Below are positions 29,667 to 59,802 of a stretch of DNA of 64,000 nt, one piece after another. The stretch spans positions 62,001 to 126,000 of the forward strand of contig NZ_JABBND010000010.1 of NCBI RefSeq assembly GCF_012933465.1, in the 5' to 3' direction. The notes beneath the pieces are model-generated. The model did not search any database. It saw only the letters and a list, made by a program, of their open reading frames with translations, and was not told the origin of the DNA. This stretch comes from Actinomycetospora sp. TBRC 11914. Lineage in GTDB: Bacteria; Actinomycetota; Actinomycetes; Mycobacteriales; Pseudonocardiaceae. Position 1 is the first letter of the stretch, and every line of letters begins with the position of its first letter. Position numbers and translations under genes: made by a program.

Positions 29667-30278
29667 GTGATCACCCGACTCGTCCTGCTCCGCCACGGCC
29701 GGACCGCCTGGAACGCCGAGCGCCGCATGCAGGGCCGGCTGGACCCGCCGCTGGACGGGACCGGTCTCGCACATGCGCAGGCCGTGGCGCCCGTGGTCGC
29801 CGGGTTCGCGCCGACGGTGCTGCTGTGCTCCGACCAGTCACGGGCGCTGCAGACCGCGCTCGCGGTCGCCGAGGCCACCGGTCTCGAACCGCGCAAGGAG
29901 CCGCGGCTGCGGGAGGCCGACGTCGGGCAGTGGCAGGGCCTGGTCGACACCGAGGTGGAGCAGGGCTGGCCCGGTCAGCTGGACCGGTGGCACGTCGACC
30001 CCACCGCGACGCCCCCCGGCGGGGAGTCGCGGGTGGACGCGGCGCAGCGGGCGCTCCCGGTGCTGCGCGAGCTGGTCGGGACCCCCGGGCCCGGCACCGT
30101 CGGCGACACCGCGGTCCTCGTCGCGCACGGGGCGGTGATCTCGGCGACGACCAGTGCCTTCCTCGGCTGGCCGGTCGAGCAGTGGCCGTCGCTGGGCCCG
30201 CTCGGCAACTGCCGGTGGTCGCTGCTGGAGTTCCGTCCCGACCGCTGGCGGCTCGTGCAGTGGAACGCCGGGGCGTGA
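29667..30278 (+). CDS. gpgP: Histidine phosphatase, probable glucosyl-3-phosphoglycerate phosphatase
   Basis: 203 residues of the phosphoglycerate-mutase superfamily. RHGRTAWN at 9-16 has the phosphorylated His10, and the second histidine is in VLVAHGAV. The position between rsfS and octT is that of the mycobacterial GpgP, which dephosphorylates glucosyl-3-phosphoglycerate in methylglucose lipopolysaccharide synthesis. The substrate is inferred from context; another phosphatase activity is possible. The start is GTG at 29667. Confidence 0.82.
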   Translation: MITRLVLLRHGRTAWNAERRMQGRLDPPLDGTGLAHAQAVAPVVAGFAPTVLLCSDQSRALQTALAVAEATGLEPRKEPRLREADVGQWQGLVDTEVEQGWPGQLDRWHVDPTATPPGGESRVDAAQRALPVLRELVGTPGPGTVGDTAVLVAHGAVISATTSAFLGWPVEQWPSLGPLGNCRWSLLEFRPDRWRLVQWNAGA

Positions 30279-31138
30279 CGCCGGACGGCCGCGTCGCGCC
30301 CCACCTGCTGGTGCTCGGCGACTCGCTGGCCTTCCACGGCCCCCGCACGGCCCACCCCGCCGACGAGCCGCGCCTCTGGCCGCACGTCGCCGCGGCGGCG
30401 CTGGGCGGGACCGCCGACCTGCACGCGGGTCTCGGCTGGACCGCGCGCCACGCGTGGTCGGCGGTGCGGACCGACCCCCGGGTGTGGGCGTCGGTGCGGC
30501 ACACCGACGTCCTCGTGCTCGGCGTCGGCGGCATGGACTCGCTGCCCTCGCCCCTCCCGACCGCCCTGCGCGAGCTGATCCCCGTGCTGCGCCCCGCCGG
30601 GCTGCGGGCCCGGGTGCGCGCCGGCTACCGCGCGGGGCACGCCGCGGCGGCGACGGCCGGCGCGCGGTGGGCCGGTGGGTGGCCGACAGCGCTCTCCGCG
30701 GCCGAGACCGTGCGCTGTCTGGAGCAGTGCCGGGTGGCGGTGACGGCGCTGCGGCCCCACGCGCCGGTCGTCCTGCTGCTGCCCCCGGTGCACCGGTCAC
30801 CGCTCTACGGCGGGGTGCACCGGCGGCGGTCGGGGCACGTGGCCGCCTTGCGGGCCTGGGCGGCGGGGCACGGGGTGGTGACCGTCGAGGCGGCCGGGCT
30901 GGTGGCCGAGCACGTGCTCACCGGGCACGGCAACCCCGACGGCATCCACTGGGGCTGGCCGGGGCACCGGGCGGTGGGGGAGGCGGTGGCCGCGGCCGTC
31001 GCGGGGGAGCTGCCTGCGCCGCGCGGCGGAGGGCCGGCGGTCCGGGAGGAGCAGCCGGCCATCCCCACCGGCAGCGGGACCCCGGGTGGTCCCCAGGCCC
31101 GGTCGCAGCGCTCGGAGGAGACGCCGGTCCGTCCCTAG
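30275..31138 (+). CDS. octT: SGNH-fold acyltransferase/hydrolase, OctT-like
   Basis: 287 residues. The nucleophile block is LVLGDSLAF with Ser17, the oxyanion Gly is in VLGVGGMDS, and the C-terminal Asp-His pair is in NPDGIHWGWPGH. In mycobacteria the gene at this position encodes the octanoyltransferase that acylates glucosylglycerate. The last ~40 residues are a Pro/Gly-rich tail. The GTG overlaps the gpgP stop (GTGA). The name rests on synteny plus the SGNH motifs. Confidence 0.7.
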   Translation: MTPDGRVAPHLLVLGDSLAFHGPRTAHPADEPRLWPHVAAAALGGTADLHAGLGWTARHAWSAVRTDPRVWASVRHTDVLVLGVGGMDSLPSPLPTALRELIPVLRPAGLRARVRAGYRAGHAAAATAGARWAGGWPTALSAAETVRCLEQCRVAVTALRPHAPVVLLLPPVHRSPLYGGVHRRRSGHVAALRAWAAGHGVVTVEAAGLVAEHVLTGHGNPDGIHWGWPGHRAVGEAVAAAVAGELPAPRGGGPAVREEQPAIPTGSGTPGGPQARSQRSEETPVRP

Positions 31139-31141
31139 CGT
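31136..31141 (+). promoter_or_regulatory. -10 element of comEA (leaderless)
   Basis: TAGCGT, beginning in the octT stop codon and ending 7 nt before GTG 31149. Confidence 0.4.
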
Positions 31142-31148
31142 CCGCGGC

Positions 31149-32153
31149 GTGGTCCCCGACGACGCCCGCCTGCGGCTGCAGACCCTCGCCGCCCCGCCCG
31201 GTCCGCCTGCTCCTGGCGGGGGATGGCCGGCGGCGCCGGCGGGCACGCCGGGAGCGCGGCTGGGTCCCGGCGACGGCGGGTGGGGCCAGGGTCCCGACGG
31301 CGGGTGGGGGCAGGGTTCCGACAGCGGGTGGGGGCAGGTTCCCGACGGCGGGTGGGGGCAGGTTCCCGACGGCGGGTGCGGGCAGGGTCCCGACGACGGC
31401 GGGTGGCCGGCCCGGGCCGCGGGGCCGGTGCCCGCGCGCGGCGCCTGGGACGAGCCGCGGACCGGTCCGGGGCGCTGGCTGCCGGCCTCGTGGCTGGCGG
31501 CGCGGTGGGACCCCGGCGGGTGGGGCGCGATCGGGCTGGCGGTGGTCGCCGCGCTGGCGGCCGTGGTGGCGGCGGTCGGGGTGTGGGCGGGGCGGCCGGT
31601 GGCCGAGCCGGTGCCGGCCCTGCCTGCGGTGTCCGCGGGCCCCGCGGCGGCACCGTCCGGTGTGGTGCCCGCGGTGGCGCCGGCACCGGGCGGGCCGGTG
31701 GTGGTGAACGTCGCCGGGAAGGTCCGCCGGCCGGGGCTGGTGACCCTCCGGGAGGGCGCGCGGGTCGGCGAGGCGCTCGAGGACGCGGGCGGGGCGCTCC
31801 CCGGGGTGGACCTCACCCCGCTCAACCTCGCCGCCCGGGTGGTGGACGGGCAGCAGATCCTCGTGGGGGTCGCGGCGCCGGCCGGGTCGGCGCCGGCAGC
31901 GCCCGTCACGGCGGGGGCCGCCCCTGCGGCTGGTGCGGCGCCCGGCGGGGCGGCCCCGGGCGGGAAGCTCGACCTCAACGCCGCGACGCTCGAGCAGCTC
32001 GACGGCCTGCCCGGGGTCGGGCCGGTCACCGCGAAGAAGATCCTGGACTGGCGCACGCAGAACGGCCGGTTCTCGGCGGTCGAGCAGCTGCGGGAGATCC
32101 CGGGGATCGGCGACGCCCGGTTCGGCACCCTGCGCGACCTGGTGCGGGTGTGA
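31149..32153 (+). CDS. comEA: ComEA-like DNA-binding competence protein
   Basis: 334 residues: a Gly/Trp/Gln-rich N-terminal region of five near-identical 8-residue repeats (GWGQGPDG type, about residues 43-84), one membrane helix near 125-150, an SLBB domain (VVVNVAGKVRRPGLVTL) and a C-terminal helix-hairpin-helix (LDLNAATLEQLDGLPGVGP). ComEA receives double-stranded DNA outside the membrane and hands it to ComEC. The intracellular repeat region is unusual. comEC starts in the stop codon. Confidence 0.9.
   Translation: MVPDDARLRLQTLAAPPGPPAPGGGWPAAPAGTPGARLGPGDGGWGQGPDGGWGQGSDSGWGQVPDGGWGQVPDGGCGQGPDDGGWPARAAGPVPARGAWDEPRTGPGRWLPASWLAARWDPGGWGAIGLAVVAALAAVVAAVGVWAGRPVAEPVPALPAVSAGPAAAPSGVVPAVAPAPGGPVVVNVAGKVRRPGLVTLREGARVGEALEDAGGALPGVDLTPLNLAARVVDGQQILVGVAAPAGSAPAAPVTAGAAPAAGAAPGGAAPGGKLDLNAATLEQLDGLPGVGPVTAKKILDWRTQNGRFSAVEQLREIPGIGDARFGTLRDLVRV
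31275..31398 (+). repeat. 24-bp tandem repeat inside comEA
   Basis: Five copies of a unit like GGCGGGTGGGGGCAGG followed by TTCCCGAC, in frame. It encodes the GWGQ repeats and could change copy number by slippage. Confidence 0.8.
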
Positions 32154-34552
32154 CCGCCCCCCGCGACGACGAGCCCCGTCCCCGCTGGGACGGCCGGCTC
32201 GTCCCGCCGGCGCTGGCGGCGTGGGCGGCTGCGCTCGTGGCGCTCGCGCTGGGATGGGGCCCGGGGGCGCTGCTCACGGTCCTGGCGCTGGTCGCGGTGG
32301 TCCTCGGCGGGCGGCGCCTGCTCGGGGCCCGGCGCGCGGGTGGCGCGGCGCCGCGGTGGGCGGCCGGGCTGCTGGCGGCCGGGATCAGCGCCGCGGCGGT
32401 GGGCGGGCTCGCGACGGTCGCGGCGCACCAGGTGGCGGGGCACCCGCTGCGGGCGGCGGCCTCGGCGGGATCGGCCGCCACGCTCGAGGTGGTCCTCACC
32501 GACGACCCCGCGCCGCTGCGCACCACCGGCCTCGGCGGGCCCCGCGTGGTGGTCCGCGCCGAGCTCGTCGCCGCGTCGGCCGCGGGGGCTCGGTGGCGCG
32601 GGGACGGGAGCGTGGTGCTCCTCGCGCCGGCCGCGGGGTGGACGGGCCTGCTCCCGGGCCAGCACGCCACCGCCAGCGGCACGCTCGGGCCGTCCACCCG
32701 CGGCGACCTCACCGTGGCGGTCCTGCGCACCCGCGGCCCGCCCCGCGACGTCGGGCCGCCGCCGGGCGTCCAGGTCGCCGCCGGTGTCCTGCGGGCCGGG
32801 CTGCGCGACGCCTCCCGAGCCGTGCTCGGCGAGGAGCCGGCCGCGCTGCTGCCGGGGCTCGTCGTCGGGGACACGTCCGCGGTCGGCGCGGACCTCGACC
32901 GCGACTTCCGGACGGCGGGCCTCACGCACCTGCTGGCGGTGAGCGGCTCGAACGTCGCGTTCGTTCTCGGCGCGGTCCTGCTCCTCGCCCGGGCCGTCCG
33001 GCTCGGACCGCGGACGGTGGCGGTGCTCGCGCTCCTCGCGCTGGTCGGGTTCGTGGTGCTCGCCCGGCCGTCGCCCAGCGTGCTGCGAGCGGGCGCGATG
33101 GGGGTGGTCGCGATCCTCGCGCTGGCCCTCGGGCGCTCCCGCTCGGTGCTGCCCGCGCTCGCGGCGACGGTGGTGGCCCTGCTACTGGTCGACCCGGCGC
33201 TCGCGGTGGACGCGGGGTTCGCGCTCTCGGTGCTGGCCACCGGTGCGCTCGTGCTGCTCGCCCCGGCGGTCGTCACGGCGCTGCGCCGGCGCGGGGTGCC
33301 GCCCGGGATCGCCGAGGCACTGGCGGTGCCGCTGGCCGCGCACGTGGTCACCGCCCCGGTGGTGGCCGGGCTGTCCGGCGAGGTCAGCCTCGTCGCGGTC
33401 CTCGCGAACCTCCTCGCCGCGCCCGTCGTCGCGCCCGCGACGGTCCTCGGGGTGCTCGCGTCCGTCCTCGCCCCGTGGTGGACCGGCGGCGCCCACGCCG
33501 CGGTGTGGCTGGCCGGGCCCGAGGTGTCCTGGCTCGTGTGGGTCGCGCACCGGTGCGCGGCGGTGCCGGGCGCGACGCTGTCCTGGCCGGGCGGGGTGAC
33601 CGGCGGGCTGCTGCTCGCCGGCCTGGTGCTGCTCGGCCTCGTCGCCCTGCGGTGGCGCCGGGTCCGGCTGCTGTCCCTCGCCGTCGTCGTCGGGCTGCTG
33701 CTCGTGCTGGTGCCGACCCGGGTGGTCCCGGTCGGGTGGCCGCCGCCGGGCTGGGCGTTCGTCGTGTGCGACGTCGGGCAGGGCGACGGGCTCGTCCTCG
33801 CCACGGGCGAGCCCGGGCGGGCCGTGCTGCTCGACGCGGGACCCGACGGCAGCGCGATCGACGGCTGCCTCTCCCGGCTCGGGGTGCGCTCGTTCGCCCT
33901 CGTCGTGCTCTCGCACCTGCACGCCGACCACGTCGACGGGCTCGCCGGGGCGCTGCGCGGGCGACCGGCCGGGGCGGTGGCGATCGGTCCGGTGCACGAG
34001 CCGGTCGGGGCTCTCGCGCAGGTCACCGGGCGGGCCCGGCGGGCGGGGGCGGCCGTCGTCGGGCTCGCCCCCGGCACCACGCTGCGCTGGCCGGCGCTCC
34101 AGCTCGACGTCCTCGGCCCGCTCCACCCGCGCACCCACGTCGACCCCGACGACGGCACCGAGGTCAACGACACGTCACTGGTCCTGCGCGCGACCACCCC
34201 GCTCGGGCGGATCCTGCTGCCCGGCGACGCCGAGGCCTCGTCCCAGGAGGAGCTGCTGGCGTCCGGGGCGGACCTGGGCGCCGACGTGCTCAAGGTGCCC
34301 CACCACGGCTCGCGGTCGTCGCTGCCGGCGTTCGTGACGGCCGCGCACGCCCGGCTCGCGCTGGTCAGCGTCGGGAAGGGCAACAGCTACGGCCACCCGA
34401 ACCCGGCGATGATGGGCCTGCTCGCCGGCACCGGCGCGCTGGTGCGCCGCACCGACCAGAGCGGGGACCTCGCCGTGGTCCCCGGCGCGGGCGGGGGCGC
34501 CGCGGTCGTCGCGCGTGGCGATCCCCGCCCCGATCCGAGGACGGGCCGGTGA
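32150..34552 (+). CDS. comEC: ComEC/Rec2 DNA-uptake channel
   Basis: 800 residues. Several N-terminal helices are followed by the competence domain (LTHLLAVSGSNVAFVLG near 255-272) with many helices, then a C-terminal metallo-beta-lactamase-like nuclease domain: CDVGQGDG, LSHLHADHVDG (about 588-598) and VPHHGSRSS. It transports single-stranded DNA into the cytoplasm. The GTG overlaps the comEA stop. The holA gene that usually follows is displaced by thrC on the other strand. Confidence 0.94.
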   Translation: MTAPRDDEPRPRWDGRLVPPALAAWAAALVALALGWGPGALLTVLALVAVVLGGRRLLGARRAGGAAPRWAAGLLAAGISAAAVGGLATVAAHQVAGHPLRAAASAGSAATLEVVLTDDPAPLRTTGLGGPRVVVRAELVAASAAGARWRGDGSVVLLAPAAGWTGLLPGQHATASGTLGPSTRGDLTVAVLRTRGPPRDVGPPPGVQVAAGVLRAGLRDASRAVLGEEPAALLPGLVVGDTSAVGADLDRDFRTAGLTHLLAVSGSNVAFVLGAVLLLARAVRLGPRTVAVLALLALVGFVVLARPSPSVLRAGAMGVVAILALALGRSRSVLPALAATVVALLLVDPALAVDAGFALSVLATGALVLLAPAVVTALRRRGVPPGIAEALAVPLAAHVVTAPVVAGLSGEVSLVAVLANLLAAPVVAPATVLGVLASVLAPWWTGGAHAAVWLAGPEVSWLVWVAHRCAAVPGATLSWPGGVTGGLLLAGLVLLGLVALRWRRVRLLSLAVVVGLLLVLVPTRVVPVGWPPPGWAFVVCDVGQGDGLVLATGEPGRAVLLDAGPDGSAIDGCLSRLGVRSFALVVLSHLHADHVDGLAGALRGRPAGAVAIGPVHEPVGALAQVTGRARRAGAAVVGLAPGTTLRWPALQLDVLGPLHPRTHVDPDDGTEVNDTSLVLRATTPLGRILLPGDAEASSQEELLASGADLGADVLKVPHHGSRSSLPAFVTAAHARLALVSVGKGNSYGHPNPAMMGLLAGTGALVRRTDQSGDLAVVPGAGGGAAVVARGDPRPDPRTGR

Positions 34553-50474: not shown

Positions 50475-50677
50475 GTGGGGCGGCCGCTGCGTCCCCACCC
50501 CAACGGGTGGATACGGCTCTGTGATCTGGACGACATGCGTCCGTTCGGCCCAGCAGGGGACCTCGCAGGTAAAGCGCCTGTGACGTGGGGCAGGTCACGG
50601 GAACCGGACCGCGCTCCGTGACGACGCGGGTACTCCGGGTTTTGACGCCCGATGTTTCGTCATGGTCGAGTTCGGCC

Positions 50678-50764
50678 ATGCACACCGCCCGGCGATTCGC
50701 GATGCGACGCCACGTCGACCTGCGTCTGCAGGCGAGCGCGCTGTGTGCCGGGTCGGCCGGCTGA
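50678..50764 (+). CDS. Putative cysteine-responsive leader peptide of the SBP56 operon
   Basis: ATG 50678 to TGA 50764, 28 codons. The peptide ends MRRHVDLRLQASALC-AGSAG; an internal ATG at 50702 gives a 20-residue version. It is the same length as, and identical at 9 of 14 motif positions to, the leader upstream of the sulfonate monooxygenase. It lies in the 650-bp gap between the enoyl-CoA hydratase gene and the operon. Strong hairpins follow, as expected for attenuation. A TTGACG at 50642-50647 may be a -35 element; the -10 is unclear. Confidence 0.75.
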   Translation: MHTARRFAMRRHVDLRLQASALCAGSAG

Positions 50765-50846
50765 GCTCCCCACTCCCTCCGGCCGACTCCCGCCGGGTCC
50801 TCGTGGCCCGCTGACGGCCCGGTCGCACGACCGGCGCTCCGTCTCC

Positions 50847-51015
50847 CCGGGCGGCCCCACCGCCCGGACCTCTCCCTCCTCGTCAACCCCGCCCCGGGCG
50901 GGGTGGCGGTGCCCCGCGTCCACGTGTGACGACGCGGTCGCGGGGCACCGCCGTCGAGGTGGGCCGGGGTGCTCTCCGACGTCCTCCCTGGCAGGCGTGG
51001 CGTCGAGGAGCACCC
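50847..51015 (+). promoter_or_regulatory. Hairpin series in the leader of the SBP56 operon
   Basis: After the leader peptide come CCGGGCGG/CCGCCCGG (50847-50867), a CCCCGCCCC/GGGCGGGG palindrome (50887-50903), a perfect 13-bp stem (50906-50918 with 50939-50951) and a 15-bp stem with two mismatches (50967-50981 with 51001-51015). The rest of 50765-51052 is pyrimidine-rich and has no gene. An AGAGAGG Shine-Dalgarno at 51038-51044 serves the first operon gene. The stems are candidates for a terminator and its competitors. Confidence 0.55.
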
Positions 51016-51052
51016 GTGCTCGACCCGTTCCCCGACCAGAGAGGTTCCCGCA

Positions 51053-51592
51053 GTGTCCTCCTCCACACCAGCGGCGCGCCGTACGCGCGCCGTCCTCGGT
51101 GGGCTCGCCGGCTCGCTCGCCGCGCTCGCCGTCCTCCCCGGCCTCGCCGGGGCCGCGTTCGCCGACACCCCGTCCACCGGCGCCACCCGGTCCGACGCAG
51201 CCCCGCAGGACGCGGCCCCACAGAACGGCGCCGCCCAGTCCTACGGCGCGGGCCAGTCCTCCGGCGCCGCCCCGTCCGACGGTGCCGCCCAGCCCGGCCT
51301 CGGGCTGCCCACCCTCCCGACGCTGCCGAAGGTCCCGGGCCTGCCCACCGCGGCCCTGCTCGGCGGTTCCGACCCGGTCGCCGAGGGCGTCGGCGGCGCG
51401 CTGTCGGCGTCCAGCCTGCTGGGCACCGACGGAGCACCGTCGGCCGACGACCCGACCCCGGCGCCCCAGGGCGCCCAGTACGGCGCGAAGCCCGAGACCG
51501 TGGTCGGCGGGGTGCCCGTCGAGGGCCTCCTGAACTCCGTCGCCGGCGCCCAGGCGATCGTGCCCGGCTCGGGTCCGAAGGACTACGCGTGA
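51053..51592 (+). CDS. Secreted Ala/Pro/Gly-rich protein, first gene of the SBP56 operon
   Basis: 179 residues. A twin-arginine-free signal peptide (basic start, then LGGLAGSLAALAVLPGLAGAA, ending AFADT) is followed by low-complexity repeats of the type AAPQNGAAQS. The C-terminal half holds LPTLPTLPKVPGLP and a VEGLLNSVAGAQ segment. It has no cysteines. No function is recognised; it could be a cell-wall or carrier protein for the exported SBP56 homologue, whose GTG overlaps this stop. A second small secreted protein lies at 56.8 kb in the same operon. Confidence 0.7.
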   Translation: MSSSTPAARRTRAVLGGLAGSLAALAVLPGLAGAAFADTPSTGATRSDAAPQDAAPQNGAAQSYGAGQSSGAAPSDGAAQPGLGLPTLPTLPKVPGLPTAALLGGSDPVAEGVGGALSASSLLGTDGAPSADDPTPAPQGAQYGAKPETVVGGVPVEGLLNSVAGAQAIVPGSGPKDYA

Positions 51593-53448
51593 GCGGCGGC
51601 CGGCACCGCCGGCTGCTGGACCGGCTCTCGCTGCGCGCGAAGATCGCCACCGTCGTCGCCGCGCTCGCGGTGATCGCCGGGGGCGTCGTCATCCCGACGG
51701 CGTTCTCCGCGCAGGCCGACATCGTCCCCCAGCGGCAGACGATCAAGGGGTCCGACGGCAAGGACTACTGGGTCGAGAACCACGTCGTCCCCGGGGCGCA
51801 GCAGGCGTCGGAGGACGCCGCCGCGGGCATCGGGAAGCGGCCGGAGTATCTGGTGGTCTGGGCCGGCGACGAGAACGTCGCCGACACCGCCGTCCCGCAG
51901 GTCAAGAAGCTGCCGGGCTCGCTCGCCAAGCCGCTGGACGCGGTCCGCAACGCCGCGCCCGGCCCGGACTTCCTGGCCGTCATCGACGCCACGAAGGGCT
52001 CGCCGGCCTACGGGAAGGTCGTCAACACCGCGACCGTCGGGCCGCTGGTGGAGAACGAGCCGCACCACATGCAGTACGCGTGGCACAAGGGCAACACGAT
52101 CTTCGCGGGCGGCCTGTTCTCGGCCGCCACCTACATGTTCGACGTGAGCAAGCTGCCCGCGGTGGGCCTCAAGGGCATCAGCCTCCCGACGCAGACCGCG
52201 TGCGGCTCGGTGCCCGACGCCTTCTGGGTCAACAAGGACGGCACGGCCTACGGCACGTACATGGGCGGCCCCGTCGCCCCGGGCCCGTGCCGCTACACCC
52301 ACGGCGAGGTGCGCTCCGGCAACGGGTTCGCCGGCTCCCCGGGCGAGGTCGTGAAGTTCGCCCCGAACGGCGACCTGATCGACCAGTCCCCGGCCGCGAC
52401 CACCACGCCCGAGGACCCGCAGCAGTGCCTCGACATGCCGGCGCTGTCGTCGCCGACGTGCGCCAACCCGCACGGCATCCAGGTCCGCGAGGACCTCAAG
52501 ACGATGGTGACCAGCGACTACGCCGAGCCGCGCAACATCATCCTCGACCCGGTCAAGGCCCCGTCGCCGCAGCTGCGCCGCACCACCCTGCGGACCTGGG
52601 ACATCTCCGACCCGGACCACCCGGTGGTCAGGTCGGTGAAGTACATGCCGGTCGGACCGCGGTCGGGCGCGGAGGACCCGCTGCACAACGAGAACCGGGC
52701 GATGATGGAGACCACGGTCACCAACCAGCCCGCGCACAAGGGCGCCTTCACGATGTCCATGCAGGGCGGCGCGATCTACTACACGCCGGACATCACCGCG
52801 AAGGACCCGGTCTGGCGTGAGGTCTACGACCTGACCGCCCTCGTGAAGAAGCTCGACCCGGCCGCCACGTCCGGGGCGGGACTCAACGGCGGCTGGCTGC
52901 AGACCAGCCCGGACGACACGACGCTCTACCACGCGGTGATGGGGCGCCAGCCCGGCGCGCTCGGCAAGAACGACAAGGGCACCGCGGGCGGCGTGATCGC
53001 GCTCGACATCTCGAAGCTCGTCGGCGCGGGCACGGGCACGACCTGCTCGATCGACACCCCCGCGCAGGAGACGGACCCGGGTCCGGGCTGCCCGTCCGCG
53101 AAGAGCGTGCTGCCGATCAACGGGGACGAGAAGGCCGGGGGCCCGCACTGGGGCGCCCTGGACAACCTCGCCCTCGGCCAGGACGGCTTCTACCACGAGA
53201 CCGAGCAGCCCCAGCGGCTCTCGACGGCGAACTACTTCGTCTCCCGCACCGGTCTCGACGGTGACCACAAGGTGTGCATGGAGGACATCGCCAAGAACGG
53301 CCAGCTCTCCCTGGACACCGACTTCAAGGACGAGCTCACCGGCGAGCCGTGCGTCGACTTCAACCGTGCCGACTGGCCCCACGGGCCGTTCGGCAACGCG
53401 AAGCCGCACTCGCAGCTGTTCGTGACCGCCGATGGTGACGTCAAGTAG
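51589..53448 (+). CDS. Exported SBP56 (selenium-binding / methanethiol oxidase) family protein
   Basis: 619 residues with an N-terminal signal (hydrophobic 19-38, SAQA cleavage site near 43). The mature part follows SBP56 proteins: PDFLAVIDATKGSPAYGKVV near 126-145, EPHH (157-160), NPHGIQV with His295, VTSDYAEPRN, and PLHNEN with His366. The histidines fall where SBP56/methanethiol oxidase proteins have proposed copper ligands. Methanethiol oxidase turns CH3SH and O2 into formaldehyde, H2S and H2O2. The selenium-linked CSSC of animal SELENBP1 is absent. The gene is coupled to the neighbours on both sides (overlaps of 4 and 17 nt). Confidence 0.75.
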   Translation: MSGGRHRRLLDRLSLRAKIATVVAALAVIAGGVVIPTAFSAQADIVPQRQTIKGSDGKDYWVENHVVPGAQQASEDAAAGIGKRPEYLVVWAGDENVADTAVPQVKKLPGSLAKPLDAVRNAAPGPDFLAVIDATKGSPAYGKVVNTATVGPLVENEPHHMQYAWHKGNTIFAGGLFSAATYMFDVSKLPAVGLKGISLPTQTACGSVPDAFWVNKDGTAYGTYMGGPVAPGPCRYTHGEVRSGNGFAGSPGEVVKFAPNGDLIDQSPAATTTPEDPQQCLDMPALSSPTCANPHGIQVREDLKTMVTSDYAEPRNIILDPVKAPSPQLRRTTLRTWDISDPDHPVVRSVKYMPVGPRSGAEDPLHNENRAMMETTVTNQPAHKGAFTMSMQGGAIYYTPDITAKDPVWREVYDLTALVKKLDPAATSGAGLNGGWLQTSPDDTTLYHAVMGRQPGALGKNDKGTAGGVIALDISKLVGAGTGTTCSIDTPAQETDPGPGCPSAKSVLPINGDEKAGGPHWGALDNLALGQDGFYHETEQPQRLSTANYFVSRTGLDGDHKVCMEDIAKNGQLSLDTDFKDELTGEPCVDFNRADWPHGPFGNAKPHSQLFVTADGDVK

Positions 53449-55453
53449 CACCGCCGCGGCGCCCACGCCGGAGGCGCCGGCCCTCCCGGACCCGTCACCC
53501 GACGGGCCCGGGAGGGCCGGGCCCCCGGCCGGCGGCCGCGGGACCCTGCTGATCGCGGGCGCCCTGGCGCTCGCGACCGTGGTCGGCCTCGTCGTGCTGA
53601 TCACCACCGGCGTCACGGCCACCCCCGACGTGGGCCCGGTCGTGCTGTCGTTCGTCGCCCCGGAGGCCTCCCCGACCTCCGTCGTGGTCCGTGTCGTGCT
53701 CGTCGTCGCGAGCTCCCTCGTCGCCGGGCTCGGCCTGGCGCGCGGGGTGGGCGGGCCCGCGGCGACCGCGGTTCTCCGGGGGGCCGCGGTCGCCGCGGGT
53801 GTCGCCGTCGTCGTCGCCGGGATCCTCGGCGACGCCGGGTGGCCCGCGGTCGCGGGCCACGTGCTGCTCGTCGCCGCGGTGGCGACGCTGCCGCGCCGGT
53901 CCGCCGCGGTCGCCGGTGCGCTCCTCGCGGGGACCGTCGCGCTCGAGGTGGCCCTGGTGGGCTGGGGCGCGGCCGCGGTGGTCGAGCTGCTCGCCGCGGT
54001 GGTGCTCACCACGGCGTCCGGTCTCGCCGCGGTCGCCGCGTCACGGCTCGGGGACGGTCCCGACGCCGGGTCGGTGCGGGTGGCGCGGCTCGGCGTGGCG
54101 GTCGCGCTCGCGGGCGCCGTGCCGGGGGCCGTCGCCCTGGTCGTCGACGGTCCGGGGCTCGCCGACCTGACCGGCAGCGTGCGCGGTCCGGTCACCGTCG
54201 CCCTCGTCGCGCTGCCGCTCGCGGCCGCCGGGCTGCTGGCGCCGGGCCTGCGTGCCCGCACGTCGTCGGGAGCCCGGCAGCGTCGGGAGCTGGCCCGGTG
54301 GGCGTCGGGAGGGCTGGCCCTCGCGCTGGGCGCGCTCGCGGTGCTGGGCGCGCTGCCCAGCGCGCCCCAACCGCCGCAGGCGGGGCGGGCGCTGCTGCGC
54401 CCGATGTCCCTCGGCACCCAGCGGGCGGCGGTGCTCGTCGCGCCGACGGCCGGTGGCCCGACCCTCGTCCGACTCTCCGACGGCGCGGACCCCGCGCCCG
54501 GGGGCGGCAGGGACGGCATGGACGGCATGGACATGGGCGGGATGGACGGCATGGACATGGGCGGGACGGCCGGCGCTCCCGACGCCGGCGCCTACACCGT
54601 CTCCGCGGGCGGGGCACCGGTCCCGTTCGCCACGCGTCCGGGCGCGCCCGGACGGTGGGCGGTCGTCGACGTGCCGGCGGGCACCGACGCGCTCACCCTC
54701 ACCGGGCCGCACGGCTCGGCGACGGTGCCGGTGACGACGGGACCGTCCGCGGCCGACCCGGCCGTGCTCGCCGGCCCGGACGGGCCGGAGTGCGCGGACG
54801 CGCTGCTCGGCGACCTGCTCGGCGGCGGCTCCGGGACGGCGTGCCCGTCGACGCTGCTCACCCCGGCGCAGGCCGGCATCCTGACCGCGGCGGTGACCGA
54901 CCTGCACGCCCGGGGGCTGACCTCGCTCTTCCTGGTCGGCGACGACTCGGCCCGCTCGCGGGCCGCCGTCGCGGCCGTGCGGGCCACCGCGGCGCGCCTC
55001 GGGCTGGCGATCTCCGACGCCCCGCGCCCCGAGGACGGGCTGCTGGTCCTGTCCGGGTGGGACCGGGCGCACGCCGAGCTGACCGACGTCACGGCCGCGG
55101 CGACGCGGACCCGGACGTTCACGGGCGGGGTCTTCCTCGCGCCGTGGCTGGTCGCCCCGGACGTGCTCGCGGCCGGGTCGTCGACGATGTTCCCGCTGCC
55201 GTTCACCCCACAGGACGCCACGCCCCGCGGGTACGCCGCCCTGCTCACGACGATCTCGGCGGACGCCGCCCCGACGTCGTCGGGCTACCTCGCCTGGGCG
55301 CACGCCCGCGGGCTGCCCGACGCCCCGCCCCGGCTCTACGCGGCCGCGGCGATCGACGTCATGCCCGGCATGCCCGGGATGGGCCACGGCGGCCAGCCCG
55401 GGGCCTGGTTCCCCGGCGGCGGGATCGTCCCGCTCTCCGGGCCGCTGTCGTGA
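53432..55453 (+). CDS. Polytopic membrane protein with Met-rich metal-binding motifs
   Basis: 673 residues. About nine membrane helices (residues 38-310) give a CopD-like core. A linker with DGMDGMDMGGMDGMDMGG (361-378) follows, then a soluble extracytoplasmic domain with two cysteines and a tail MPGMPGMGHGG near 644-654. Met/His-rich repeats are typical sites for Cu(I). The gene starts within the last codons of the SBP56 gene, which strongly couples their production. I infer copper delivery to the SBP56 protein, as SCO-type chaperones do for methanethiol oxidase; there is no direct evidence of metal identity. Confidence 0.65.
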   Translation: MVTSSSTAAAPTPEAPALPDPSPDGPGRAGPPAGGRGTLLIAGALALATVVGLVVLITTGVTATPDVGPVVLSFVAPEASPTSVVVRVVLVVASSLVAGLGLARGVGGPAATAVLRGAAVAAGVAVVVAGILGDAGWPAVAGHVLLVAAVATLPRRSAAVAGALLAGTVALEVALVGWGAAAVVELLAAVVLTTASGLAAVAASRLGDGPDAGSVRVARLGVAVALAGAVPGAVALVVDGPGLADLTGSVRGPVTVALVALPLAAAGLLAPGLRARTSSGARQRRELARWASGGLALALGALAVLGALPSAPQPPQAGRALLRPMSLGTQRAAVLVAPTAGGPTLVRLSDGADPAPGGGRDGMDGMDMGGMDGMDMGGTAGAPDAGAYTVSAGGAPVPFATRPGAPGRWAVVDVPAGTDALTLTGPHGSATVPVTTGPSAADPAVLAGPDGPECADALLGDLLGGGSGTACPSTLLTPAQAGILTAAVTDLHARGLTSLFLVGDDSARSRAAVAAVRATAARLGLAISDAPRPEDGLLVLSGWDRAHAELTDVTAAATRTRTFTGGVFLAPWLVAPDVLAAGSSTMFPLPFTPQDATPRGYAALLTTISADAAPTSSGYLAWAHARGLPDAPPRLYAAAAIDVMPGMPGMGHGGQPGAWFPGGGIVPLSGPLS

Positions 55454-55472
55454 TCCCCGAACCCCCCTTCCC

Positions 55473-55487
55473 CATGGAGACTCCATG
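55473..55487 (+). promoter_or_regulatory. Palindrome over the YeeE/YedE start site
   Basis: CATGGAG-A-CTCCATG covers the Shine-Dalgarno GGAGA and the ATG. It could form a small hairpin (5-bp stem) that lowers initiation. Confidence 0.3.
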
Positions 55488-56762
55488 ACCACCGTCCCCG
55501 ACCTCACCTGGCCGCGACGCCTCCTCGGCGGCCCCGGCCACCAGTTCGAGCCCGTGTTCACCCCGGCCCCGGCGGCGCCGCCGGCCAACCGGGTCGTGGT
55601 CGCGATCGGGCTGGTCATCTGGGTCGCCCTGGCGGCCGCGGTGTGGGCGACCGCCGGGCCCCGCATGGCCGGCGTGCTCGGCCTCGGCCTCGCGCTCGGC
55701 GTCACGCTCTTCCACTCCCGGTTCGGGTTCACCGGGGCGTGGCGCCAGCTCGTCGCCGTGGGGCAGGGGGCCGCGCTGCGGGCCCACATGCTGATGCTCG
55801 CCGTCGCGGCCGTGCTGTTCTCGATCATCCTGCCGTTCGGGCTGAGCGTGACCGGGTCCGCGAGCCCGCAGCTCGGCCCCGTCGGGATCCCGCTGTTCGT
55901 CGGCTCCTTCCTGTTCGGCGTCGGGATGCAGCTCGGCGGGTCGTGTGCCTCGGGCACGCTGTTCTCGGTCGGGTCCGGGCAGACCTCGATCCTCTACACG
56001 CTGGTCGGGTTCGTCCTCGGGTCGATGGCGTCCATCGGCACCTTCACGTTCTGGACGAGGACCGTCCCCCAGGGGCCGGTCGTGAACCTGGCCGCGATCC
56101 TGGGCTACCCGGGCGCGCTCGCGGTCTCGCTGGTGGTCATGGGCGGGATCGTCGCGGTGACCGTCGTGGTGGGCCGGCGCCGCAACCCGCCGCCGATCGA
56201 CGCCCCGCCGACCGAGCGCGGGCTGCGGCGCGTGCTGCGCGGCTCGTGGCCGCTCTGGGTCGGGGCGGTGCTGCTCGGCGTGCTCAACGCGGCCGTGCTC
56301 GTCGTCTCCGGGCAGCCCTGGGGCGTCACGTCGGCGTTCGGGCTCTGGGGCTCGAAGATCGCCGCGCTGTTCGGTGCCCACCCCGCCGGATGGGCCTACT
56401 TCCAGGTGCCCGCGAACGCGAGGTCGCTGGCCGGGTCGGTCCTCGCCGACCGCGTCTCGGTCCTCGACTTCGGGATCATGGCCGGCGCCCTGGTGGCCTC
56501 GGCGCTCGGTGGGGCGTTCGTGCTCCACCGGGCGGTGCCGTGGCGCACGGTCGTCGCCGCCCTGCTCGGCGGCGTCCTCATGGGCTACGGCGCCCGTCTC
56601 GCCGGCGGCTGCAACATCGGCGCCTACTTCTCCGGCATCGCCTCCTTCAGCCTCCACGGCTGGCTGTGGGGCCTCACGGCCATCGTCGGGACCGTCGCCG
56701 GTCTCGCGCTGCGCCCCGTCTTCGGGCTCGCCAACCCGAAGCCCTCCGACTCCCGCTGCTGA
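55485..56762 (+). CDS. YeeE/YedE (TsuA-like) sulfur-species transporter
   Basis: 425 residues with about 9-10 membrane helices and both family cysteine motifs: GGSCASGTLFSVGSGQ with Cys154 and AGGCNIGAYFSGIASFS with Cys376. Members move thiosulfate through a relay of conserved cysteines, and some are annotated as selenium transporters. It lies 31 bp after the Met-rich membrane protein and 12 bp before a small secreted protein. In this operon it would import sulfide- or thiosulfate-level sulfur released outside the membrane. Confidence 0.87.
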   Translation: MTTVPDLTWPRRLLGGPGHQFEPVFTPAPAAPPANRVVVAIGLVIWVALAAAVWATAGPRMAGVLGLGLALGVTLFHSRFGFTGAWRQLVAVGQGAALRAHMLMLAVAAVLFSIILPFGLSVTGSASPQLGPVGIPLFVGSFLFGVGMQLGGSCASGTLFSVGSGQTSILYTLVGFVLGSMASIGTFTFWTRTVPQGPVVNLAAILGYPGALAVSLVVMGGIVAVTVVVGRRRNPPPIDAPPTERGLRRVLRGSWPLWVGAVLLGVLNAAVLVVSGQPWGVTSAFGLWGSKIAALFGAHPAGWAYFQVPANARSLAGSVLADRVSVLDFGIMAGALVASALGGAFVLHRAVPWRTVVAALLGGVLMGYGARLAGGCNIGAYFSGIASFSLHGWLWGLTAIVGTVAGLALRPVFGLANPKPSDSRC

Positions 56763-56774
56763 AAGGGATCCGTC

Positions 56775-57143
56775 ATGAACACCCTCACCCGTCTCGTCGC
56801 CGGCACCCTCGGCGCCGGCGTGCTCGCCGTGTCCGGCGCCGGGCTCGCCTCGGCCGCTCCGTCCGACACCGGGACCGCCGACACCGGGACCGCCGGCACC
56901 GGCGCGGCCACCGGCGCGGCCACCGGCTCCGGCACCGGCCACCTCGCGCCCGAGCCCGGCGGCACCGCGACCTACGTCCTGCCCGGGGTGGCCGCCCCGC
57001 TGCCCGACCCGACCCTCGGCGTGCCCGACCTCCTGCGCGTCGCGGTGACGCCCCTCGGCCTGCTCGCCGACGCCGCGGGCGAGAGCGGCGGCCAGGCGGC
57101 GCCGCAGGGCGCGCAGGCCGGCCCCGGCTCGGCCGAGAGCTGA
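56775..57143 (+). CDS. Small secreted low-complexity protein
   Basis: 122 residues: a signal peptide (LVAGTLGAGVLAVSGAGLASA) and a Thr/Gly/Ala-rich mature part containing GTADTGTAGTGAATG and LPDPTLGVPDLLRVAVTPLG. No cysteines. The architecture is like the first gene of the operon and its leucine-containing segment is similar in style. Function unknown. The stop overlaps the ATG of the next gene. Confidence 0.7.
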   Translation: MNTLTRLVAGTLGAGVLAVSGAGLASAAPSDTGTADTGTAGTGAATGAATGSGTGHLAPEPGGTATYVLPGVAAPLPDPTLGVPDLLRVAVTPLGLLADAAGESGGQAAPQGAQAGPGSAES

Positions 57144-58444
57144 TGGCGGGCTCCCGCCCCCACCCCGGGCGTGGACCGCTCGCGGGGGCGGGGGCCCTCC
57201 TGCTCGCCGTGGGACTCACCGCGGCGTGCCTGCGCTCCCCGGTCACCGCCGTCGGTGCCGTGCTCGGCGCGTTGCGGGCCCCCGTCGCCTCGGGCGGGCT
57301 CGGGCTCGGCGGCCTCGGTGCCGGGGTGCTCACCGCGATGCCGCTGGCGGTGTTCGCCGCCGGCGGCATCGCGGCGCCCGCGGTGACCCGTCGTCTCGGT
57401 GCCCGGGCGGTCGTGCTCGGCGGCCTGGCCGTGATCGCGGTCGCGCTGCTCGCGCGGGCCGCGTCCGGGTCGGTGACGACGCTGCTCGCGACGAGTGCCG
57501 TGGCCCTGGTCGCGGTCTCCTGGATCAACGTCGTGCTCCCGCCGCTGGTGGCGCCGCGCTCGCCCTGGGCGACCGGCGTGTTCTCCACCGGCGTGCTCGT
57601 CGGGATCGCGGCGCCGGCCGCGCTGGCGGTGCCGGTCGGGTCGGCGACCGGCCTGGGCTGGCGCGGCGGGCTCGGCGTCTGGGCCCTGCTCGCGGTGGCG
57701 GCCGCGGCGTCGTGGGCGGGCACGCCGGTCGAGGCGGGCCCGGTGGCGACCCGGCGACCGGCCGCCGTCGAGGGTCGGCGCCCGGTCGCGCTCGCGGCCT
57801 TCTTCGGGGCTCAGAGCCTCGGCGCGTTCGCGGTGATGGGCTGGCTCCCCCAGGTCTACCGCGACGCCGGGCTGGCGTCGGGCACGGCGTCGGTGCTGCT
57901 CGCGGTCACCGTCGTCCCCGCGCTGCCCGCGGCCCTGCTGCTGCCCGCCCTGGTGCGCCGCGGCCACGGCACGGCCCTCGTCGCCGGGGTCGGGGCCGCG
58001 CAGGTCCTCGGCCTCGCCGGCCTGGCGCTCGCCCCCGCCCGGGGTGCGTGGCTCTGGGCGGTGCTGCTCACCACCGCGCACTGGGGCTTCCCGCTCGCGA
58101 TGGCCCTGGTCGCCCGACGGTCCGCGGGCGATCCCACCCGGCTCTCCGCGCAGGTGCAGGGGACCGGCTACGCGCTCGCCGTCGCCGGGCCGCTGCTCCT
58201 CGGCCCGCTGCACGACGCCAGCGGCGCGTGGATCCTGCCGCTCTCCCTGCTGCTCCTCGTCGCGCTCGGCCAGGTCGTCGCGGGCCTGCGCGTCACGCTC
58301 ACCGACCCCGGTCGGGCGGCCGACACCGAGCCGCCGACCGCGCCGCTGGTGCCGGCACCCGTCGTCGGGACCCCTCCCGAGCCGACGGGGCCGTGCGCGC
58401 CGACGGCCCCGCTCCCCGTCCGTTCCCCGGAGGACACCGCATGA
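57143..58444 (+). CDS. MFS transporter, CynX/NimT type
   Basis: 433 residues with 12 predicted helices. The first reads LLLAVGLTAACLRSPVTAVG, the CynX/NimT subgroup start (LRP-like R in helix 1), and QGTGYALAVAGPLLLGPLHD is in helix 11. Family members move cyanate, nitroimidazoles or small anions. No cyanate lyase is present. In the operon it may export or import a small organosulfur or anionic product. It overlaps both neighbours by 1-4 nt. Confidence 0.8.
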   Translation: MAGSRPHPGRGPLAGAGALLLAVGLTAACLRSPVTAVGAVLGALRAPVASGGLGLGGLGAGVLTAMPLAVFAAGGIAAPAVTRRLGARAVVLGGLAVIAVALLARAASGSVTTLLATSAVALVAVSWINVVLPPLVAPRSPWATGVFSTGVLVGIAAPAALAVPVGSATGLGWRGGLGVWALLAVAAAASWAGTPVEAGPVATRRPAAVEGRRPVALAAFFGAQSLGAFAVMGWLPQVYRDAGLASGTASVLLAVTVVPALPAALLLPALVRRGHGTALVAGVGAAQVLGLAGLALAPARGAWLWAVLLTTAHWGFPLAMALVARRSAGDPTRLSAQVQGTGYALAVAGPLLLGPLHDASGAWILPLSLLLLVALGQVVAGLRVTLTDPGRAADTEPPTAPLVPAPVVGTPPEPTGPCAPTAPLPVRSPEDTA

Positions 58445-59802
58445 GCCTCGCCACCGCCCCGCCCGCCGCCCTGCCCCGCGTGTTCGACGCCGGGGGCCCG
58501 GTCGCCCTGCCCGACGGGCGCCTCGTGCCGGTCGCGGCGCTGAACAACGCGGCGACGACGCCGCCGCTGGCGGTCGTGGTCGACGCCGTCGTCGGGATGC
58601 TGGGGGAGTACGGCGCGCTGCACCGCGGCTCCGGGCCGCGGGCGCGGGCCACCGTGGAGGCGGTCGAGGGCGCCGTCGCGGCGATCGAGCGCTTCCTCGG
58701 CCAGCCCGCCGACAACGCGCTGCTCTTCACGACCAACACCAGCGCGGCGATCAACCACCTGGCCCGGCTGCTCGCACTCGGACCCGACGACGTCGTCGTC
58801 ACCTCGGAGATCGAGCACACCAGCAACAACCTGCCGTGGCGCCACCAGAGCGCGGCGCGGGTGGCGGAGGTGCGCGCCGACGACGCGGGCGCGCTCGACG
58901 TCGCCCACCTCGCCGAGGTGCTCGACGCCCATCGGGGCCGGGTGCGCCTGGTGGCGGTGACCGGGGCGTCCAACCTCACCGGCCACCGGCCCGACCTCGC
59001 GACGCTGGCGGACCTCGCCCACGACGCCGGCGCGCTGCTGTTCGCCGACGCCGCGCAGCTCGCGCCGCACCGACAGATCGACATGGCCGCGAGCGGGGTG
59101 GACGCGCTCGCGTTCTCGGCGCACAAGGTCTACGCGCCGTTCGGGCTGGGGGTGCTGTCGTTGCCCCGGGCGGTGCTGGACCGGACGCCGGTGGACCCCG
59201 GCGGCGGGTCGATCGACATGCTCGCGGCCGACGGCGCGGTGCTGTGGGCGCCGCCGGCCGAACGGCACCAGACGGGGACGTGGAACGCCACCGGCATCGT
59301 CGCGCTCGGGGCGGCGGCCGACGCGCTGCTCGACGCCGGGTGGGGCCTGGTCGAGGCGCACGAGCGGGCGCTGACCGCGGTGCTGGTGGACCGGCTGTCG
59401 GCGGTCGAGGGCGTGACGCCGGCCGTGGACCCGGACCGCTACCGGACCGAGGACCGGATCGGCGCCGTGCCGTTCCGGGTGGCCGGGCTGCACCACGCGC
59501 TGGTCGCGTCGGCACTCGAGGCCGAGCACGGGGTCGAGGTCCGCGCGGGGACGATCTGCAACCACCGGCTCGTGCGCCGCTGGGTGGGCGCCGACGACGC
59601 CGAGCAGGCGCGGGTGGAGGCCGCGATCGCCGGCGGCGACCGGCTCGCGAGCTACGGCGTGGTGCGGGCGAGCCTGGGCCTGCAGAACACGGTCGACGAC
59701 GTCGAGCGGCTCGTGGCGGGGCTCGCCGCGCTGGCGAGCGAGGGCCCGCGGTTGCGCTACCGGCCGTCCCCGGCACAGGAGTGCTGGGTGCCGTCGGCCT
59801 GA
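58441..59802 (+). CDS. Class V aminotransferase, cysteine desulfurase-like
   Basis: 453 residues. The PLP lysine is Lys229 in SAHKVYAP; NNAATTPP starts the fold and ITSEIEHTSNNLPW-like VTSEIEHTSNNLPW follows. Near the C-terminus RAGTIC keeps a cysteine (Cys373) where class II desulfurases have RAGHHC. A desulfurase or selenocysteine-lyase-type reaction on a cysteine-like substrate is therefore plausible; an isopenicillin-epimerase-like racemase is an alternative. ATG overlaps the MFS stop (ATGA). It is the last gene of the operon. Confidence 0.82.
   Translation: MSLATAPPAALPRVFDAGGPVALPDGRLVPVAALNNAATTPPLAVVVDAVVGMLGEYGALHRGSGPRARATVEAVEGAVAAIERFLGQPADNALLFTTNTSAAINHLARLLALGPDDVVVTSEIEHTSNNLPWRHQSAARVAEVRADDAGALDVAHLAEVLDAHRGRVRLVAVTGASNLTGHRPDLATLADLAHDAGALLFADAAQLAPHRQIDMAASGVDALAFSAHKVYAPFGLGVLSLPRAVLDRTPVDPGGGSIDMLAADGAVLWAPPAERHQTGTWNATGIVALGAAADALLDAGWGLVEAHERALTAVLVDRLSAVEGVTPAVDPDRYRTEDRIGAVPFRVAGLHHALVASALEAEHGVEVRAGTICNHRLVRRWVGADDAEQARVEAAIAGGDRLASYGVVRASLGLQNTVDDVERLVAGLAALASEGPRLRYRPSPAQECWVPSA

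Follow-up and report, generated by a model that had tools for sequence, protein, structure and literature searches.

Genomic organization of the operon

The window analysed here is a stretch of 64,000 nucleotides (nt) from Actinomycetospora sp. TBRC 11914 (positions 62001-126000 of its contig; the source genome comprises 6.5 Mb in 63 contigs), and our subject is an operon on its forward strand in which a leader open reading frame (ORF; 50678-50764) is followed by seven packed genes of the same strand, g1 to g7 (51053-59802). Two of these genes carry the argument: g2, encoding an exported-type propeller on a separate branch of the SBP56 superfamily, and g3, encoding a membrane protein related to CopC-CopD copper proteins. 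An earlier reading of the sequence alone, made without database searches (the sequence-only reading), had described seven packed and overlapping genes behind a leader; the coordinates, the gene count and the overlaps were all reproduced, with overlaps of 4 nt (g1/g2), 17 nt (g2/g3), 1 nt (g5/g6) and 4 nt (g6/g7) and gaps of 31 nt between g3 and g4 and 12 nt between g4 and g5.

Both flanking genes were sought in 11 of the 15 genomes of the genus that lack g2. In three of them the two flanks had close matches on a single contig, at distances of 3.4, 3.2 and 5.0 kb, and neither the leader nor g1-g7 was found between them by tblastn, a search that could miss a 28-amino-acid peptide; in the remaining eight, the flank encoding a 2-oxoglutarate-dependent oxygenase had no match above 48% identity. 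The whole interval acts as a unit that a genome either has or lacks.

A conserved leader peptide with a single cysteine

The leader ORF encodes 28 amino acids (aa), including RRHVDL and ASALC, with one cysteine near the end (MHTARRFAMRRHVDLRLQASALCAGSAG). It had been proposed to be a cysteine leader, and the finding of a conserved motif upstream of relatives sustains this proposal: the peptide is conserved ahead of the operons of close relatives, and its pattern occurs within 1 kb upstream, on the sense strand, of 17 of the 70 g2 homologues examined, against none of 70 on the antisense strand and one of 788 other genes. Leader-bearing loci outside the two main genera are L062, L064, L088 and the divergent L100, and a near-variant missed by the pattern is present in L011. 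The sole control gene with the pattern (gene index 2 of L052, Actinomycetospora soli) lies near the operon copy of that genome; its start presumably resembles that of a taurine dioxygenase.

Cysteine leaders work by ribosome stalling, which controls expression of the genes downstream. Like other actinobacterial cysteine leaders, such as those of NCBIfam NF042934 ('putative leader peptide') and the cysteine-responsive polycysteine ORFs of mycobacteria (PMC13236596), the peptide described here is a short ORF with a cysteine near its end, located before sulfur-related genes. It differs from them in having a single cysteine and in scoring below the NF042934 cut-off (12.6 bits; cut-off 27), and by analogy it may act through the same mechanism. 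The spacer between the leader and g1 (50765-51052) folds strongly, the stretch 50765-51060 being more stable than its shuffles (z -3.63). A search of this spacer for a U-tract terminator found none, and a single terminator-like site (50636-50651) lies 5' of the leader.

A remote branch of the SBP56 superfamily with a putative rebuilt copper site

The product of g2 (51589-53448) had been assigned to SBP56 and likened to methanethiol oxidases. It reaches 16.3 bits against PF05694 (SBP56; cut-off 34) and 26.8 bits against the methanethiol oxidase model NF052453 (MtoX/SELENBP1; cut-off 650); failure against PF05694 had been named in advance as grounds for abandoning the assignment, and strict membership falls on this score. 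A true SBP56 is encoded at another site of the same genome (C12:201155-202543, 585 bits). Remote homology to the superfamily does stand. All 11 g2 homologues scanned match SBP56 weakly (best E 2.1e-5), and an alignment of 73 g2 members (those shorter than 500 aa or below 300 bits were dropped) matches the SBP56 profile with a probability of 93.6 over 406 columns globally and of 71.5 over 264 columns locally, figures that are rough because the template consists of only three true actinobacterial proteins. The best fold match of a g2 model is 2ece (SBP56; E 6.1e-7, template-modelling (TM) scores 0.34/0.44, root-mean-square deviation 12.1), and the matches ranked after it include numerous other propellers, such as nitrous oxide reductase; since this model is weak, only the identity of its best match is used. 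A single-sequence model was discarded (predicted local distance difference test (pLDDT) 34.8). Searched against the sequences of solved structures, g2 alone gave two chance-like matches and its profile found 2ece at E 0.28. Because all homologues scanned match, if weakly, the profile alignment covers the greater part of both families and the best fold is that of SBP56, we conclude that g2 represents a remote branch of the SBP56 superfamily and is not a strict SBP56. We assume export by the general secretory (Sec) route, since the twin-arginine pattern is rare among the members (13 of 73) and missing from the window protein; export by the twin-arginine (Tat) route was rejected. One copy, in L012 (the metagenome-assembled genome (MAG) Pseudonocardia sp. 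SCN 73-27), gives two overlapping partial matches in two frames, so a frameshift or an assembly error is likely; it may sit in the 73-row set as read in one frame.

The paired histidines H159-H160 (in SELENBP1, H73-H74) are kept in all 73 members and align with the ELHH of SBP56. H295, E374, H520 and H607 are each kept in 72 of the 73 members and H560 in 71. The HxxH motif (H137 and H140 of SELENBP1) is present in the three true SBP56 proteins compared, was found in none of the 73 members within the 190-230 block, and occurs nowhere in window g2. E374 is the probable counterpart of human E252, and H295 that of human D189. Changes at H73, H74, H137, H140, D189 or E252 strongly suppress the activity of human SELENBP1 (PMC10362175), and His89, His90, His140 and His412 are the proposed copper ligands of MtoX (PMC5739008). 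Because the paired histidines are fixed, HxxH is gone and other histidines are near-invariant, the putative copper site of g2 is partly kept and partly rebuilt; we infer that copper would be held by this site. As g2 stays below both curated cut-offs and HxxH was found in none of the 73 members, the labels SBP56 and methanethiol oxidase are not supported for g2.

A partner derived from copper proteins

g3 (53432-55453) encodes a membrane protein with a methionine-rich insert. No Pfam match was obtained for the window protein, and neither CopC nor CopD exceeds its cut-off in g3 itself. However, the 55-member g3 family aligns with a set of five fusions of CopC, CopD and a periplasmic-binding protein (probability 98.2, E 3.2e-14, 260 columns). 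Both fusions scanned with Pfam exceed the threshold for CopC (63 and 61.6 bits). In one of them CopD and Peripla_BP_6 are above threshold as well, whereas CopD in the second reaches 29.1 bits against a cut-off of 32.1. A third fusion, scanned with NCBIfam, has sub-threshold matches to the CopC and CopD models, and the g3-family member of L087 scores 24 bits for CopD (cut-off 32.1). Proteins of 925-953 aa are encoded beside divergent g2-like genes (L103:10800-13658, L104:4541-7318, L115:1921-4782, L116:5754-8600), and those scanned have CopC and CopD domains, one with a periplasmic-binding-protein domain in addition. Thus, g3 resembles CopC-CopD proteins through its alignment to these distant partners and differs from them in that the partners are fused to a periplasmic-binding-protein domain and g3 itself lacks any Pfam match; it is best read as a worn form of the CopC-CopD-binding-protein fusion, descended from a CopCD-type protein. 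The earlier suggestion that g3 is a methionine-rich protein of copper type gains support from the CopC and CopD domains of the distant partners and from this alignment.

Relatives of g2 occur in 111 of the 297 genomes sampled from the window's family (Pseudonocardiaceae), in 15 of 394 of the class and in 4 of 296 of the phylum, the source genome being counted in all three tallies; among the 18 genomes sampled from the genus, three have g2. The closest named relative by g2 protein is that of Actinomycetospora endophytica (89% identity), and six Streptomyces plasmid records contain a relative of 45-49% identity annotated as hypothetical protein. Neighbourhoods were compared at 71 places, a non-random set chosen by hand, with each genus represented by roughly one to a few places, from the 111 carriers, the class search and named loci, in which tandem g2 copies count twice; L005, L006 and L007 (duplicates of L053, L052 and L054) and L013-L051 (short flanks) were left out, and gene calls and clusters come from our own scripts. 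In 59 of these places g2 is followed, on its own strand and at most two genes downstream, by a gene of either partner family; in four of the 12 places without one, under five genes were called on one of the two sides. Outside this set, the phylum loci L115 and L116 contain a g2-partner pair, as judged by position and N-terminal sequence; no partner-type gene was seen beside the g2 relative of L117.

This partnership bears on the distinctly unlikely reading that g2 is a divergent but ordinary methanethiol oxidase, which like MtoX would convert methanethiol into formaldehyde plus sulfur in reduced or sulfane form. The two proteins belong to the same superfamily, with remote homology over most of g2 and the paired histidines kept, and MtoX is likewise exported, with a SCO1/SenC copper-protein gene adjoining mtoX among its copper-chaperone neighbours (PMC5739008). 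Sulfane sulfur is a product of some methanethiol oxidases (PMC10936201) and would suit the YeeE-type importer g4. Yet g2 is far below both curated cut-offs, HxxH was found in none of the 73 members, and the family has additional near-invariant histidines; its partner is of CopCD type where MtoX has SCO1/MauG, a cysteine leader precedes its operon, and a separate true SBP56 is present in the same genome.

Transporters, desulfurase-like enzyme and small proteins

The product of g4 (55485-56762) clearly belongs to the YeeE/YedE family (PF04143, 234.2 bits; cut-off 27), and two of its cysteine motifs align with a solved TsuA/YeeE protein. It remains far below the cut-offs of the NCBIfam TsuA equivalogs (81.8 and 49.5 bits; cut-offs 400 and 645). 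The description of g4 as a TsuA-like transporter therefore holds for the family and not for the TsuA equivalogs, and the same two features define its likeness to, and difference from, the TsuA/YeeE thiosulfate transporter. g7 (58441-59802) encodes a SufS-like pyridoxal 5'-phosphate (PLP) enzyme with 245 bits against PF00266, whose PLP lysine and catalytic cysteine align with those of solved desulfurases, as expected from its description as desulfurase-like; against TIGR01979 (SufS) it scores 225.4 bits, below the cut-off of 475. g6 (57143-58444, likely start ATG 57143) encodes a transporter of the major facilitator superfamily (MFS) of CynX/NimT type, with 179 bits against TIGR00896 (cut-off 406) and no match in the Pfam scan; these family scans used the CTG start at 57140.

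The co-occurrence of the genes in relatives, as first proposed, is upheld for the g2-g3 pair and not for g6 and g7 as constant members. A SufS-like gene lies within five genes of g2 in only 13 of the 71 places, and the g6-type MFS cluster accounts for five neighbourhood rows from four distinct genomes; for this reason, g6 and g7 are accessories to the system. The small proteins encoded by g1 (51053-51592) and g5 (56775-57143) have exported-type N-termini and no family match. By eye, g1 contains small-protein motif A and g5 motif B. The motifs were chosen with the sequences already in view; of 144 small proteins encoded on the same strand close to g2 homologues, 22 have motif A and 20 have motif B, against 2 and 0 of the 226 other small proteins of the loci.

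The type of g6 raises a further reading, which we regard as very unlikely: g2 would act like a thiocyanate dehydrogenase, releasing cyanate and sulfur from thiocyanate outside the cell, with cyanate imported by g6 and sulfur by g4. Thiocyanate dehydrogenase has a three-copper centre and converts thiocyanate to cyanate and sulfur. By its description, the Thioalkalivibrio enzyme is also an exported seven-bladed copper propeller, and copCD genes lie near its own (PMC5328954); moreover, g6 is of CynX type and the MAG named 'SCN 73-27' carries a g2 copy. Cyanase, when the window's genus is set aside, is found in 38 of 108 carriers and 40 of 171 non-carriers (p 0.04). Over all genomes, however, the counts are 41 of 111 and 55 of 186 (p 0.20), and cyanase is present in 18 of 18 genomes of the genus, with or without g2; related genomes are not independent in these counts, and cyanase does not clearly track g2 carriage. 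Also contrary to this reading, g6 stays below its family cut-off, its cluster is confined to the four genomes mentioned, and the 50 fold matches listed for the weak g2 model do not include a thiocyanate dehydrogenase.

Genomic context in relatives

The sulfur context of the operon, proposed in the sequence-only reading, is corroborated by the neighbourhoods. A YedE-type transporter lies within five genes of g2 in 31 of the 71 places, and sulfate-assimilation genes stand beside two Streptomyces plasmid copies. Three of the six Streptomyces plasmid records were opened. In the first, the g2-partner pair is in a strand run with a nitrite/sulfite reductase, with cysC, cysD and 3'-phosphoadenosine 5'-phosphosulfate (PAPS) reductase beside it, and L091 shows the same arrangement by gene clusters; in the second, cysD is beside the g2 copy. 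A further sulfur link is found in L092, where a metallo-beta-lactamase/rhodanese protein (L092:11105-12469) is encoded in a strand run with g2, the partner and YedE. Genes for Streptomyces antibiotic regulatory protein (SARP) regulators lie near all three of the Streptomyces copies opened.

A cluster whose scanned member is of nucleoside diphosphate (NDP)-hexose 2,3-dehydratase type lies near the g2-like genes of L068, L069, L070, L082 and L085, as if these genes had been taken into a sugar or natural-product cluster; L070 and L085 each have two g2-like genes in tandem. A [2Fe-2S] protein cluster and a second recurrent cluster of large proteins are located near those of L073, L074, L097 and L101. 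Since some copies stand among sugar or redox gene clusters, these branches of g2 may have other roles. Here lies the basis of an alternative that we consider rather unlikely, in which g2 and g3 are mainly a copper-handling pair (for capture or sensing), or g2 is a redox tailoring enzyme of natural-product clusters, with only a secondary link to sulfur. Across the places compared, nothing is as constant as g2 with its CopCD-derived partner, and the SARP regulators, like the copies beside NDP-hexose 2,3-dehydratase or [2Fe-2S] protein clusters, fit such a role. The association with the leader and with YedE speaks against it, as do the Streptomyces copy in a strand run with sulfite reductase and the leader that precedes even the divergent copy of L100.

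Elsewhere in the window, positions 30001-34000 stand out from most of the sequence by a G+C content of 0.80-0.82 and strongly negative AT skews (-0.19 and -0.40).

A proposed scheme for sulfur scavenging

The genes, their homologies, the motif changes, the co-occurrence and the conservation of the leader are direct results of the computation. On balance, and with a confidence somewhat above even, we propose that the operon is an exported, copper-dependent sulfur-scavenging unit under cysteine control. When charged tRNA-Cys is low, ribosomes would stall close to the leader's end, and this would allow expression of the genes that follow. The g2 protein would be exported and would bind copper in a remodelled histidine-rich centre, to which its conserved residues point; g3 would supply this copper and may bind the substrate. 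Outside the membrane, g2 would oxidise a small sulfur compound and break its bond to sulfur, the likeliest substrates being small thiols or other reduced organosulfur compounds. The freed sulfur species would then enter via g4, a role consistent with the known function of its family, and would join cysteine and persulfide metabolism, with g7 presumably an accessory in this genus.

Several observations weigh against this scheme. HxxH, which is needed in human SELENBP1 (PMC10362175), is found in none of the 73 g2 members; the g2 model, built from eight sequences, is weak (mean pLDDT 44.8, predicted TM score 0.54); and the metal and the substrate of g2 are deduced from sequence. By the pattern used, 53 of the 70 g2 homologues have no leader, and 13 of the 17 that have one belong to two genera (Actinomycetospora and Pseudonocardia-type loci). 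YedE is not nearby in 40 of the 71 places, the third Streptomyces plasmid has no sulfur gene within 9 kb of its copy by annotation, and some g2 copies are found among sugar or redox genes.

We advance more tentatively, and with less than even confidence, the stronger proposal that g2 founds a new class of exported copper enzymes: a propeller of the SBP56 superfamily with a rebuilt site, matured by a CopC-CopD-binding protein, which, controlled by cysteine, would mine sulfur from an extracellular sulfur compound through a reaction distinct from both methanethiol oxidation and thiocyanate dehydrogenation as they are known. The parts of the operon belong to known kinds. In the open-access literature we found no description of the g2 branch, of the rebuilt site or of the gene combination, which is not to say that they are absent from print; nor did that literature yield any paper that treats a selenium-binding protein together with CopD and sulfur in actinobacteria, or together with CopC in actinomycetes. 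If the scheme is true, a family annotated as hypothetical protein in six plasmid records would be an extracellular copper-dependent system for sulfur acquisition. The SBP56 superfamily would gain an exported branch with a copper partner of its own, and its copper centre would prove capable of being rebuilt. The scheme would also provide candidate substrates for sulfur use by soil actinobacteria.

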